From NCBI GenBank assembly GCA_028692875.1, contig JAQUWL010000008.1, positions 1-64,000 of the forward strand: a DNA stretch of 64,000 bases. The letters are read 5' to 3'. Each line of letters starts with the position of its first letter. The first letter of the stretch is position 1. Positions 1,338 to 51,280 of this stretch are shown here, piece by piece. Under the pieces are notes generated by a model. That model saw nothing but the letters and a program-made list of their open reading frames with translations. It ran no database searches and was not told where the DNA came from. Position numbers and translations under genes: made by a program. This DNA is from Sulfurospirillaceae bacterium. GTDB taxonomy: Bacteria; Campylobacterota; Campylobacteria; Campylobacterales; Sulfurospirillaceae.

Positions 1338-4300
1338 TTAGAGCGTTTTGTTAATGTTTCTATTTCGATATGAAAAAGCTATCAATGCAAAAACTATAAC
1401 GATAGTATAGTAAACAAATGAAGGAATTGGCACAGGATCTCCAGATGCGTATGAATGCATTCCAGATAGATAAAAATTTACACCAAAATAGGTCATAATA
1501 ATAGAGGCAAAAGATATAGTTGATGCCACAGCAAATGCGAACAAGGAGTTAATTTTTGGCACAAAACGCATATGCGCAACAGCCGCATAAATCAAAATAG
1601 AGACCAAAGACCAAGTCTCTTTTGGATCCCAACCCCAATATCTACCCCACGATTCATTTGCCCAAACACCACCTAAAAAGTTACCAATAGTTAGCAAACT
1701 AAGTCCCAATATCATAGACATCTCATTAATTCGAGTTGCCTCTACGATGTTACGGTCGATTTCAATATCTCTTTTGCTATTGCCTCCATTTTTACGCAAA
1801 GCAAACAAAATCAATGTAAAAAATCCCAAAAGCGAACACAATCCCAAAAATCCATAACTAGCCGTAATAACAGAAACGTGAATATTTAGCCAATAAGATT
1901 TCAGAACAGGAACAAGCGTTGTTATCTGAGGGTCCATCCAGCTAAGATGTGCCACAAACAAAGTAACGCCCGCCAAAATAGAGGTCAATGCCAAAGAGAC
2001 GATAGATTGTCTAGAGAAAAAGATTCCAGAAAGCGCAATAGCCCACGAAATATAAATCATCGACTCATATCCGTCACTCCAAGGTGCGTGCATAGATATA
2101 TACCATCTCAAACCAAGACCAGCGGTTTGGACAAGAAACGCCAATAAATTAATTCCAAAAACTATTTTAGTAACGGTTGAAAGATTTAGATTTGGCTTGA
2201 GCATTTTTGCAAAGATAAAAAATAGAAGCACCAGACCACTCAAAAGATAAAAAGGTGTCAATCTTTGAAAAATCTTTGCCTTATTAAAAAAGATTTCAGT
2301 GCTTACTCTGCTAGGGCTAGGGATTATATCAGATGCGTACTGCTGTTGGTAAGCCATAAGTTTTTCTACAGATTTGTCAGCATTTGTCCAAATATTCTTC
2401 TCTACACCCTCGCCGAGCGCTTCAAAATATCCAGCAAACAACGACCTAACCTCATCGCTCTCCTCTTTTGGAAATGTACCAATAGCTGTTTTTGGGCTAA
2501 ACCATCTTTTTGAAGCATCGTTTATCTTTGGAATTATCCTAAAAATTTCACCAGTATATACCAAGTAGCAAACATTTACTCTCTCGTCAACCTTGATAAC
2601 ATCTTTATCAAACTGATTTCTATTGGCTGGCTTTTTAAGATTTGCCTCATCAGCATACTTTGTTAGCTTATACTGTCTTGTACCACTTCTATCAAAAAAA
2701 TCATTAAAAGATGCATACTTTGCATCTGGCTTAAGTCCTAAAATCTTCTTCAACTCAGGATGAAAAACATTTATCATCGGTTGGGTTTGCCACTCGCCAG
2801 GAGAGCTCATCATGCCAAGCACTACTTGATTTGCACTTAGTCCTTGATATGATGTTTTTCGGTAGACTTTATTTAGCAACTCATCTACGACTGTGTCTAT
2901 CGGCTTGATTCTTCCATCGGCACTTTGTGTTAATATTTTTGCAAAATTATCCGCATGTGTCTTGTCGTACCTTTTAAAATACTCTAAATACTCATCATTT
3001 CCAACCGCATTTATAGCAGTAGGAGAGGATAGAGCCAATAAAACAAATATTGCGACAAATGCTGATTTTATTTTAACCATGTCTCTTTGTATCATAGAGG
3101 CCAATTTTCTAAATCTGCTTTTTGGATTAACAAGGTTGAAAAACAGACCAATACCCAACAAGATATATCCTATATATGTAGGCCATTTTCCTGGATCTTT
3201 ATTGACTGACAAAATAGTTCCTTTCTCATCTTGATCATACGATGATTGAAAAAATCTATACCCTCGATAATCCAAAACATGGTTCATGTAGACACGATAA
3301 GGCATATTAACGTTCATCTGTGCATCTACAACTTCTATTTCACTTGCATAAGACATTGGAGATTTTGAGCCAGGATATCTCTCAAGCTGAAACTCGTTTA
3401 GTTTTATCAAAAAAGGCAACCTTGAAACCATGGAACCCCACTCAAAAGCAAATTTAACATTACCGATCATAACTCTTTCGATATATCCTTGATAGTTTTT
3501 GCCCTTTCCGTACATTACAACTTCTTGTTTTTCCCCTTTAAACTCAACATCAACAACCAATGCGGACAAAACATCCCTATTGCTTTTAGCCATAGGATTC
3601 TTGTCCTCAACAACTTTTATTTTTCCTTTAAGCCCTATATATTTAGGGGCAAAATTAATACTTTCTATCGTATAAAGTTTTCCTGTTGTAAAATCATTTT
3701 TTGCCTCCGCCTCATAAACACCCCTACTATTTTCCGCCATCTTAAACCAAGATATTTGCTTTGGAGATTTTATGAAAAACTTGCCATCCTCAACCGTAAT
3801 AAAAACGGCGTTGTTATCTTTGTTTTCAGCCTTAGCATCAAAAATAAACTCTAAACCATCTATCGTTTTACTCTCCCCTCTAAAAAGACTAACCTCTTCA
3901 CTGCCTTTGTTAGAGCTAACAACCATACTAAGTGCTGGAAGACCAGAAGGATCATCAACCATTTTCTCTGTTGCATTTTTTATAAAGGATTTAAATTTAA
4001 TTTTTGCAATATCTCCATCAACATCCAAATCAAAAGAGAAGTTGTTGCCACCAAGTGACGATATCAATTGTTTTTTCTGAATTCCATATGTCTTTTCGTC
4101 TTTAACCGCCTCGACACGCACAAAAGGATCACTTGAAACAACACGATTGTCAGACTTTCCTTCTCTTACATGTAAAGAGCCTTCAAACCCATAATATCGA
4201 GTCATTCCAGAGCCAACAAGGATAAATAAAAAACCTATATGAAACAAAAAAGACGGAATACTATCTTTTCTGTACATTTTATAACGAAAAATGTTGTACA

Positions 4301-47675: not shown

Positions 47676-47730
47676 TTTATATCCTTACATGTAAGGATGC
47701 TTGGACACTCTTGTCGAGAAGAACCCAGTT

Positions 47731-47770
47731 TAAATATAGTCTTTAGAACAAAGCTCTAAAGACTATATTA
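47731..47770. terminator. Bidirectional terminator between mscL and sodX
   Basis: AATATAGTCTTTAG (47733-47746) pairs perfectly with CTAAAGACTATATT (47756-47769) around a 9-base loop. It sits between two convergent genes. A TACATGTA inside a larger palindrome (ATCCTTACATGTAAGGAT) lies just before it at 47682-47699. T tails are weak on both sides. Confidence 0.6.
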
Positions 47771-47787: not shown

Positions 47788-48066
47788 TCAAAAAAGTTTA
47801 AAAAGAACTTTGTGCGTGATGATACAAGAGGGTATAAGACCGAAAGTGCGACTATCAGCACTATAAGGTGAAGTACCCTCTACAAAAACTCCATCTTTTT
47901 CTATGCGTTTTACCTTTTTCATCATCGCTTTTCCATCTTTTTCAAAAATAACGATATTACCTATTTTGAAAGAAAAAAAAGAGGTCACCTTGAGAGCAAG
48001 AATGACCTCCTTATCCTTAAGTAATGGATAAAGAGAGTCGCCTTTTACTTTAAAAAGTTTTATCAC
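47788..48066 (-). CDS. sodX: Nickel-SOD maturation protease (S26-type), SodX-like
   Basis: 92 residues. It resembles a minimal S24/S26 signal-peptidase-type enzyme: catalytic Ser in VKGDSLYPLLKD (residue 11) and catalytic Lys in AMMKKVKRI (about 50-51), then GTSPYSADSRTFG near the end. Adjacent to sodN, it should remove the 15-residue leader to free His1 of the nickel hook. Overlaps sodN by 4 bases. No membrane anchor, so it acts in the cytoplasm. Confidence 0.88.
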   Translation of the reverse strand: MIKLFKVKGDSLYPLLKDKEVILALKVTSFFSFKIGNIVIFEKDGKAMMKKVKRIEKDGVFVEGTSPYSADSRTFGLIPSCIITHKVLFKLF

Positions 48067-48542
48067 AAAACGGGATAAACCACGATTTCATTTGGAAGAT
48101 AAGGAGCTTTTGCACTCTTTGTTGGAACACCTTTTATAGCCCAAAAAATCTCAGCAAATTTATTTACCTCTTGAAGCAATTCAAGGGCTTTTTCCCTTGA
48201 TACATGTTGCTTAGAAGCTCCACCTAACGCCATAATGTTATGCACTATCGTATGTATTTCAGGATATTTTTCAAGATGTGCAGGCTTGATAAAATCGCCC
48301 CAAATAATGCGTATCTCATCCTTACACTTTATCGCCTCAGACTCTTTAACCGCAATATATCTTGAAAGTGTGTTAAAGTAACTAACTTCATCGTCGCCTT
48401 TTACCAAGGCTTTGATTTGGTCAACCATACGAATCACACTAAGAGCAGCTATCTGCGCAACAATTGGGTCATAAATGCCACACGGCACATCACAATGAGC
48501 ACTCACGCTTTGAGGCTTCAAGATTTCAAATATTTTTTTCAT
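48063..48542 (-). CDS. sodN: Nickel-containing superoxide dismutase precursor
   Basis: 159 residues. The nickel hook HCDVPCGIYDP begins at residue 16, after a 15-residue leader ending SVSA. His1, Cys2 and Cys6 of the mature enzyme are present, with Asp3 and Tyr9. Helical bundle sequence follows, as in NiSOD (DQIKALVKGDDEVSYFNTLSRYIAVKESEAIKCKDEIRIIWGDF, in part). It dismutates superoxide to oxygen and peroxide. Leader removal by SodX is needed to expose His1. This family is not the usual SOD of Campylobacterota (FeSOD, SodB). Confidence 0.93.
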   Translation of the reverse strand: MKKIFEILKPQSVSAHCDVPCGIYDPIVAQIAALSVIRMVDQIKALVKGDDEVSYFNTLSRYIAVKESEAIKCKDEIRIIWGDFIKPAHLEKYPEIHTIVHNIMALGGASKQHVSREKALELLQEVNKFAEIFWAIKGVPTKSAKAPYLPNEIVVYPVL

Positions 48543-48610
48543 AGCGTTACATCCTTTGTTGAATTACAAAAGAATTATAATTTAAGTTTGGACACTTGTC
48601 AATTGCAAGC

Positions 48611-48654: not shown

Positions 48655-50637
48655 TTAGTTTGAAGTCTTAAACTGCTTAGCCCTTTCACTAAGCTCATCA
48701 GCTGCGACTTTAAGGTTTTTGGAAGAAATAGCAACTGTGGCTATCTCCTGATTGTTTTCATTCGAGATATTAGTTATTTCATCCATTTGGGAAACAAATT
48801 TTTGCATTCTCTCGGATGCATCATTAAGTCTTTGCGTAGATTGAATAACGCTTTTCTCAGCATTTACCATAACGCTTTCTACGGACTCTATTATAGATTT
48901 TGCTGCATCGGAATCTTTGCAAAGCAACTTGACCTTATCGACGTTTTTATTCATTTGGTCGCTACTATCAAGGATAGACTGCACGATAACATTGACTGTG
49001 GCATTGATCTCTTGCAGGGAGTGCTGAGTTTTTTCCGCCAATTTTCTAACCTCATCAGCAACAACAGCAAAACCTCTACCATGCTCACCTGCCCTTGCAG
49101 CTTCGATAGCAGCATTAAGTGCTAAAAGATTTGTCTGGTCAGCAATATCATTAATGACACTCAAGATATTTTTAACTTGTTCGGCCTCGTTGCTAAGGAT
49201 ATTAAGTTTTTCACTCAAAGATATCTCTCTGTCGCTATTAAGAACGATTTGTCCAACCATGTCCGCTATTTTAACACTCGCATTTTTCAAATCTCGCCCT
49301 GCTAAGTTCATCTCTTCTTGAGTTTTTTTGGCCTCTAATGCCGAATTTTTCATCAATGATTCAACATCTTTTGCATCCCTTGATGCACTTAAGATAATAT
49401 CAGATTCTTTTAAAATATTTTTTGACATCTTTTCAAAAACAGCCTCAATATCTTTAACACTTTGCATGTTCCCAGAAGCCCCGCTTTTTATACTTGACAT
49501 AATATTGTCAAGAATTAACACAAACTCCCGTAACGCCTTTCTAATACCACCGAACTCATCATCATCATAGATGGTAATCTGTGTCGTAAAATCTTTTGAA
49601 TTGGCAATATTTGAAATAATAAAATCCAATGATGAAACTCTTTTTTTGATATCTCTGTCGATTATATAAGAGACAAGCAAAAGAACAAAAATAACAAAGC
49701 CACCAAAGGTTGCATCGATAATAGCTGTCGACTCAATAGAATCAAGCTTATAATGAATTTCTTTTGCTATATCATCATCTATGGACTTCAAAGTATTTAT
49801 CTTTTTCGTAATCGTATCAAACCAAACCTCACCATTAATGCCAAAACCTTCCATTTTTTCCACTGCAATTTGACGCATATTTGTCACTTCTTTAAAGGAT
49901 TTCTCCTCTTGTGCATCTTTATAGGCAATGCCGAGCTCTTTAGTTCCCAGAGCCAAAGCTTGAGATAGAAGCAAATCTTGCTCCGCAATCAATTTTATAA
50001 AATTTGAATACATGCTAGGAGCGAATTTGTCAGCTGAAAAAGTATTGGACAAAACAGCTCTTTCGATACCAGCTCGCTCTTTTGCTTTCAAAAAAGAGCT
50101 ATAAGAAACAAGGAGCTTAGTAATATCATTGTCAACAGAAAGTTTTGCCGAAAGTGCGGTAACATCAAGAAGCATTGTGTTAAGATCCGTGTAGTAAGCA
50201 ACTTGCTCTTTTGCAGAAATAGAAAGATCATCAACTCGACTTCTTATTGATTCCATAGAGGAGTATTTTTGGTCTATTTTTTCCAAAGAAGCTTTAAACA
50301 TAGCATCAAAATCTGAAAACTTTATCTTTTTAACAAACGCTACATACTCTTTATGTCTTTCGTCAGTCAACTTTCTTTGAGGAGCCAATTTGTCCCCAAA
50401 CTTCTGCCCTTTACTTCCCAGATATCCAGCACTTGCACCTCTCTCTTTTTGAGTTTCATGCACCAATAAACTTATCTTTTCGCTAAGATTTACAAGTACG
50501 TTAACCTGCTCAATTCTTTGCTGGTACTTTATGTCTTCAATCACTTTACTGCCAGTAAAATAAAGTAGTGCCACCAATGGCAATATGGCCAAAACAAATA
50601 ACTTCCCACGAATACTTAGCTTATAAAAAAAATCCAT
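48655..50637 (-). CDS. Methyl-accepting chemotaxis protein with a NIT sensory domain
   Basis: 660 residues from the ATG with AAAAGGAG nearby; the longer frame upstream lacks support. A membrane segment near 12-30 leads to a helical periplasmic NIT domain ([18 protein letters not shown] near 65, a mark of nitrate/nitrite-sensing domains), a second membrane segment near 318-338, a HAMP-like linker and the signalling domain with [20 protein letters not shown] near 560. The ligand is probably nitrate or nitrite, by family only. It would steer swimming through CheA/CheW. Confidence 0.9.
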
Positions 50638-50734
50638 TAAGCCACTCCTTTTATGAAAATCAAACCCACTGTTCGATAAAATACAAGCAATTCTAACAAA
50701 AAATAGATAAAAATAGACAAAAATAGGGAAAATC

Positions 50735-51280
50735 GTGAAAAGCCTAGAAGAAAAGCAAATCTTGTTTACCTCACTTGTTCTCAAATATAACAAAACACAC
50801 AATATCACTGGTGCAAAAAACACTAACGACATAGAGAAAAATATACAAGATAGTCTTTTCCCATTAACTTTCTTGGAAACAAAAAGTACTCAAAAAATCG
50901 TTGATATTGGAAGTGGAGCTGGTTTTCCAGGACTTGTTTTGGCTATGGCTTTGCCCGATACACATTTTTATCTATTCGAACCAATAGCTAAAAAAAGTGC
51001 TTTTTTGCATCTTGCCAAAACTGTTATAGAACTCAACAATGTCTCCATTTTCACCCAACGAATCGAAGATGCAGAGCCATTTGAAGCTGACATTATATGT
51101 TCCCGTGCAGTTACTCAGACGCAAACGCTTATAAATTTGTGTCAAAAATTTATAAGCAAAAAAACTATACTTTTGCTCTACAAGGGGGAGCGTGTTGTAG
51201 ACGAATTGCCAAAAAATGGAGAATACGAAATACACAAAAAAGACAAACGAAACTATCTCACAATCAAGGGGCTTTTATGA
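50735..51280 (+). CDS. rsmG: 16S rRNA (guanine-N7) methyltransferase RsmG
   Basis: 181 residues from GTG. It methylates G527 of 16S rRNA. The SAM-binding motif is [16 protein letters not shown] near 55 and [11 protein letters not shown] near 84. NITG near the start is typical. It is somewhat shorter than E. coli RsmG (207). It overlaps the next small gene by ATGA. Confidence 0.95.

Follow-up and report, generated by a model that had tools for sequence, protein, structure and literature searches.

The 64,000-nucleotide stretch of a Sulfurospirillaceae genome analysed here (the window) encodes on its minus strand a nickel superoxide dismutase (NiSOD) precursor, sodN (48063..48542, 159 aa), and a small S26-type maturation protease, sodX (47788..48066, 92 aa, GTG start), whose open reading frames overlap by 4 nt (GTGA). 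SodN matches the Pfam Sod_Ni model (PF09055) at 157.2 bits (cut-off 25) and the NCBIfam sodN model TIGR02753 at 163.2 bits (cut-off 90). Its 15-residue leader, MKKIFEILKPQSVSA (48498..48542, minus strand), is followed immediately by the nickel hook HCDVPCGIYDP (48465..48497, minus strand), of the form HCxxPCGxYxP, whose ligands His1, Cys2 and Cys6 were placed from the sequence and by alignment with PDB 1t6i. The leader is predicted to be cleaved before His1; position -1 is Ala in all 12 aligned SodN sequences, and the hook is unchanged across them. An AlphaFold model (pLDDT 88.5) has the four-helix NiSOD fold, all 16 of its PDB matches at E <= 0.001 are NiSODs, and its TM (target) against NiSOD structures 1q0d and 1t6i is 0.87-0.92.

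Judged by profile and predicted fold, SodN appears to be an ordinary member of the NiSOD family. It shares with the Streptomyces and cyanobacterial enzymes the HCDxPCGxYDP hook after a short leader, the four-helix fold and a downstream SodX partner, and can be aligned with the Streptomyces structures from the hook onward. However, it is only ~30% identical to the Streptomyces NiSOD structure, and it differs from both groups in a C-terminal extension of ~20 residues with predicted strands. Where the Streptomyces enzyme has Glu17 and Arg47, the alignment shows Ala and Glu; these are second-sphere residues that vary among other NiSODs, and thus we do not take the changes as loss of function. Hook variation was also seen elsewhere: in three Colwelliaceae sequences (L055, L056 and L076) the glycine of the hook is replaced by Lys (HCDIPCKIYDP).

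SodX scores 29.5 bits against Pfam Peptidase_S26 (cut-off 22.9) and 27.9 against S24 (cut-off 23.3). The Ser11/Lys50 dyad is invariant and the S-x-DSR box conserved among 13 aligned SodX sequences, the best structural match of the SodX model is signal peptidase SpsB (4wvg), and a sodX-like reading frame lies 3' of sodN at every hook-type campylobacterotal locus examined. The protein thus resembles the NiSOD proteases of equivalog TIGR02754 in its adjacency to and overlap with sodN, its length, its S26 Ser-Lys dyad and its S-x-DSR box, but reaches only 35.3 bits against that model, below the cut-off of 63.25, and most of its relatives differ in having Leu rather than Met after the catalytic Ser. 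The sequence-only reading had claimed a complete sodN-sodX unit at 47788-48542, with this hook after a 15-residue leader, in a Campylobacterota-like genome. Those coordinates are correct and both reading frames are real; profile matches and the overlap of the two genes bear out the unit, the hook is where it was said to be, and Campylobacterota is the right phylum, the family being one that includes Sulfurospirillum arcachonense.

Upstream of sodN, and on its strand, are a ribosome-binding site, AAAGGA (48552..48557), and a perfect sigma-70 consensus promoter, TTGACA-17-TATAAT (48574..48602), an element expected 0.00 times in shuffles of the window. A 15-bp perfect inverted repeat read directly between mscL and sodX (47733..47769) is a possible terminator. 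The motif AAAGGATGTAAC is common to the sodN leaders of the window and of Sulfurospirillum sp. UBA6810, though the loci differ, which hints that a moving unit may start at the ribosome-binding site. We saw no foreign base composition, the GC content of sodN (38.5%) and sodX (33.7%) being near that of the window (37.3%).

The 1.94-Mb genome that contains the window (99.87% complete, 0.85% contamination) yielded neither an Fe/Mn-SOD nor a Cu/Zn-SOD anywhere; as a control, the Fe/Mn-SOD search was positive in 12 of 14 known genomes. No redundant SodB or SodC was thus found, which supports the non-redundancy on which the sequence-only reading hinged. Contamination of the contig was also rejected, given the low genome-wide value and the position of the unit within conserved Sulfurospirillaceae gene order. 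Like nearly all relatives, the genome keeps one superoxide-reductase-like gene (C32:4962-5234), a homologue of the iron-dependent enzyme. It also encodes a [NiFe]-hydrogenase, and therefore the cell already handles nickel. The nickel uptake that had been implied found no counterpart in a NicO importer, for which the Pfam model gave no match in this genome, and the suggested sparing of iron is hypothetical. In Arcobacter-like and Thiotrichaceae genomes, genes for NicO-like nickel/cobalt transporters (HAFGPDH-type motif; weak Pfam scores) adjoin sodN at five loci (L036, L037, L041, L136 and L014), and lend supporting evidence for the nickel link.

Profile searches of 399 genomes of the order detected Sod_Ni in 11 genomes and Fe/Mn-SOD in 217. 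The hook type HCDVPCGIYDP accounts for nine of the 11 (9 of 399 sampled), two of which (G107 and G397) also encode an Fe/Mn-SOD, as does one of 20 further Campylobacterota sodN genomes added by sequence search. Fe/Mn-SOD therefore occurs in 3 of the 29 genomes that have hook-type sodN and in 215 of the 390 that do not (Fisher p 1.4e-6; p 0.052 in the order sample alone). These p-values are only a guide, since the counts lack phylogenetic independence and include many metagenome-assembled genomes. NiSOD is rare yet widespread in Campylobacterota, and mostly substitutes for the iron enzyme instead of being added to it. With 29 such genomes in hand, the idea that a nickel enzyme is new to the phylum is not supported. 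Within Sulfurospirillaceae, sodN is present in 4 of 44 genomes, including S. arcachonense; the window's genus is represented in the sample by the window's own genome. Additionally, two genomes (G002 and G308; loci L010 and L012) encode NiSOD-like proteins in which HCQIPCGIYDD comes straight after a Sec-type signal peptide; these would represent an exported variant that does not need SodX.

The location of the unit is informative. In the window, hemN-argF-hemB is followed by ribA (GTP cyclohydrolase II, PF00925; 46665..47228, plus strand), mscL (PF01741; 47244..47675, plus strand), sodX-sodN (minus strand), a methyl-accepting chemotaxis protein (MCP) gene (48655-50832) and rsmG (PF02527; 50735..51280, plus strand). 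The slot is anchored by ribA and rsmG, which are collinear in relatives, and mscL bounds it on the left. In the nearest relatives, genus g2, regarded here as Sulfurospirillum proper, the genes run hemN-argF-hemB (minus), ribA and mscL (plus), sodB (minus in most) and rsmG, with sodB adjoining mscL. A five-gene tree of the locus places the window genome as sister to the 19 sampled g2 genomes (100/99). The nickel unit therefore has the same flanking genes, position and strand as sodB in the sister genus, and the resident gene is absent, a replacement that the sequence-only reading had missed; neither a sodB remnant nor a repeat marking the exchange was found in the window's slot. The MscL encoded beside the unit carries a zinc-ribbon-like C-terminal tail, CPECAMSIPLEAKKCPHC, with a UPF0547 match below cut-off.

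Which enzyme came first can be addressed from the SodB tree. The SodB proteins of g2 and of genus g5 cluster together (90/86), and therefore sodB is probably ancestral and older than the g1/g2 split, so that the direction of change at the ribA slot would have been from sodB to sodN. The reverse, in which sodN-sodX was the first occupant and sodB its replacement in the sister genus, draws on two observations. Relatives beyond g1 and g2 have ribA and rsmG and lack the mscL-SOD segment, and therefore do not fix the first occupant. Occupants also turn over, because four g2 genomes (G258, G139, G161 and G020) hold a second SodB lineage in the slot, which at loci L087, L088, L094 and L126 lies in the opposite orientation, with a Tat-type superoxide reductase gene after it. 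However, we consider this order of events unlikely in view of the g2/g5 SodB group, the presence of sodB in g5, and a third locus, described below, where the genome with sodN branches from within those with sodB. In G241, the slot contains mscL and no sodB.

The same swap is seen at two other chromosomal places. In genus g5, Sulfurospirillum sp. UBA6810 (G385) has the order fbp-mobB-lipoprotein-sodN-sodX-dsbA-dsbB (flanking gene names from our own reading of the sequences), and its congeners G128 and G250 have sodB at that position, between the lipoprotein gene and dsbA. G385 and G250 share homologous DNA up to a point 7 bp short of each start codon and again from immediately beyond sodX and sodB, respectively, and a TATAAT-like -10 region lies within the DNA retained in all three genomes. 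In family f9, G253 carries a 1,636-bp ank-sodN-sodX segment where G226 has an 868-bp sodB segment, between two genes common to both, in flanks that are 75-87% identical in DNA, and G253 is nested among sodB-bearing congeners. A possible intermediate of the exchange is G417, which encodes the sister of the G253 SodN: its third slot is still occupied by sodB, and its ank-sodN-sodX lies elsewhere. An ankyrin-repeat gene lies directly 5' of sodN-sodX at several loci (L037:4404-4997, L042:4400-5005, L128 and many Sulfurovum loci), and the related ankyrin gene precedes sodB, not sodN, at L130 and L131; its product is perhaps a helper in metal loading.

Seven hook-type sodN genomes of the order sample lack sodB, three of them have close sodB-bearing kin, and in all three the unit occupies the sodB slot. 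For the remaining four (G091, G232, G291 and G308), the sample contains no congener with sodB, and their sodN lies outside all tested sodB slots. With the swap repeated at two other places, this looks like repeated in-place exchange of metal enzymes. Three cases are few, and the ribA slot also shows insertions of other kinds, among them MCP and GNAT, so one might suppose that sodN-sodX had landed where relatives keep sodB by coincidence, simply because such spots tolerate insertions. We regard this as extremely unlikely, as all three testable genomes agree at three different loci, on the same strand and with sodB always missing, and by our own estimate a random landing beside a given gene among ~2,000 has a chance of roughly 1 in 1,000 each time. 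We hold with considerable confidence that sodN-sodX provides the sole superoxide dismutase of this cell and that it replaced sodB in place, an exchange also made in other genera at two further loci.

The source of the unit appears to lie within the phylum. A 67-row tree of SodN places the window protein in a 35-row clade (97/89) of Campylobacterota with six nested Gammaproteobacteria, mostly Thiotrichales, and transfer from another phylum is thus not supported. The four Sulfurospirillaceae sodN genes sit at four different loci, and the AU test rejects their grouping as one clade (p 0.0003, or 0.035 when BB15, whose SodN clusters with Arcobacteraceae, is left out). Vertical descent of sodN within the family, followed by loss in most lineages, would fit the weak pairing of the window and S. 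arcachonense proteins (62/79) and their ~80% identity, comparable to housekeeping genes, but is made highly unlikely by the different locus in each member, the rejected clade and the placement of BB15. As the family's SodN proteins are not one clade and the genes flanking the window's slot were inherited vertically, arrival by transfer, which the sequence-only reading had suggested, is likely. The SodN tree and the loci are most simply explained by transfer within the phylum, and the donor looks to have been another member of Campylobacterota.

We can outline how such an exchange may work. On family knowledge, SodX, a Ser/Lys mini signal peptidase, would cut the 15-residue leader and free His1, and His1, Cys2 and Cys6 would then bind nickel in a four-helix protein that dismutates superoxide. 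The window lineage would have lost the sodB of its relatives, leaving sodN-sodX between ribA-mscL and rsmG on the same strand, and the same exchange would have arisen independently in the other genera. The mobile unit may comprise ~0.8 kb (ribosome-binding site, sodN and sodX, once with the ankyrin gene), moving mainly among Campylobacterota and entering probably through recombination within conserved flanking DNA, or else by inserting next to sodB, which is subsequently lost. The sequences themselves show the gene content, the positions, the exclusivity and, to the level of genes, the breakpoints, whereas nickel binding, catalysis, leader cleavage by SodX and flank recombination are the steps that we infer here. 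More broadly, and tentatively, the iron and nickel genes might be regarded as non-homologous alleles of one slot, with sodB and sodN-sodX swapped repeatedly by homologous recombination in the flanks, perhaps through natural transformation; lineages would thereby change the metal of the dismutase while keeping the locus and sometimes the promoter. We find this generalization plausible, if somewhat less probable than not.

A separate feature of these genomes is the palindrome TTACATGTAA, with seven copies in the window (47685-47694, and at 4166, 28090, 28127, 34941, 41237 and 41460) against 0.1 expected. Sister-genus DNA totalling 339 kb contains 147 copies (0.5 expected), 68 of them within open reading frames, and no other 10-mer there is more over-represented. 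The palindrome is present in g5 and g4, is absent from g3, f9 and f6, and may serve in DNA uptake or as another signal that acts genome-wide.

These findings have implications for understanding how bacteria retool their metal economy. They suggest that enzymes without common ancestry can repeatedly replace each other in place. Additionally, they offer a natural experiment for metal choice: one dismutase is exactly substituted for another at the same place among close kin, and the costs and benefits of using nickel or iron can therefore be examined in relation to the nickel and iron of the habitat. The literature that we searched contained no report of NiSOD in Campylobacterota. The enzyme family itself is known; what is new is the location of sodN, and the interest lies in the apparent repeated in-place swap of metals.

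Reliance on NiSOD alone is known from some cyanobacteria, and transfer of sodN from one phylum to another has occurred (PMC8346466). In Streptomyces coelicolor, iron and nickel enzymes are likewise alternatives in one role, sodF and sodN both being present in one genome and inversely regulated by Nur (PMC3919588). In contrast to that arrangement, here a genome has one dismutase or the other, in the same slot. The process also resembles xenologous gene displacement, already known and so termed in PMC1274311, in that a transferred gene takes the place of a resident one. Unlike displacement in that sense, however, the genes exchanged here are non-homologous and encode enzymes of different folds and metals, and yet they occupy the same position at three loci.
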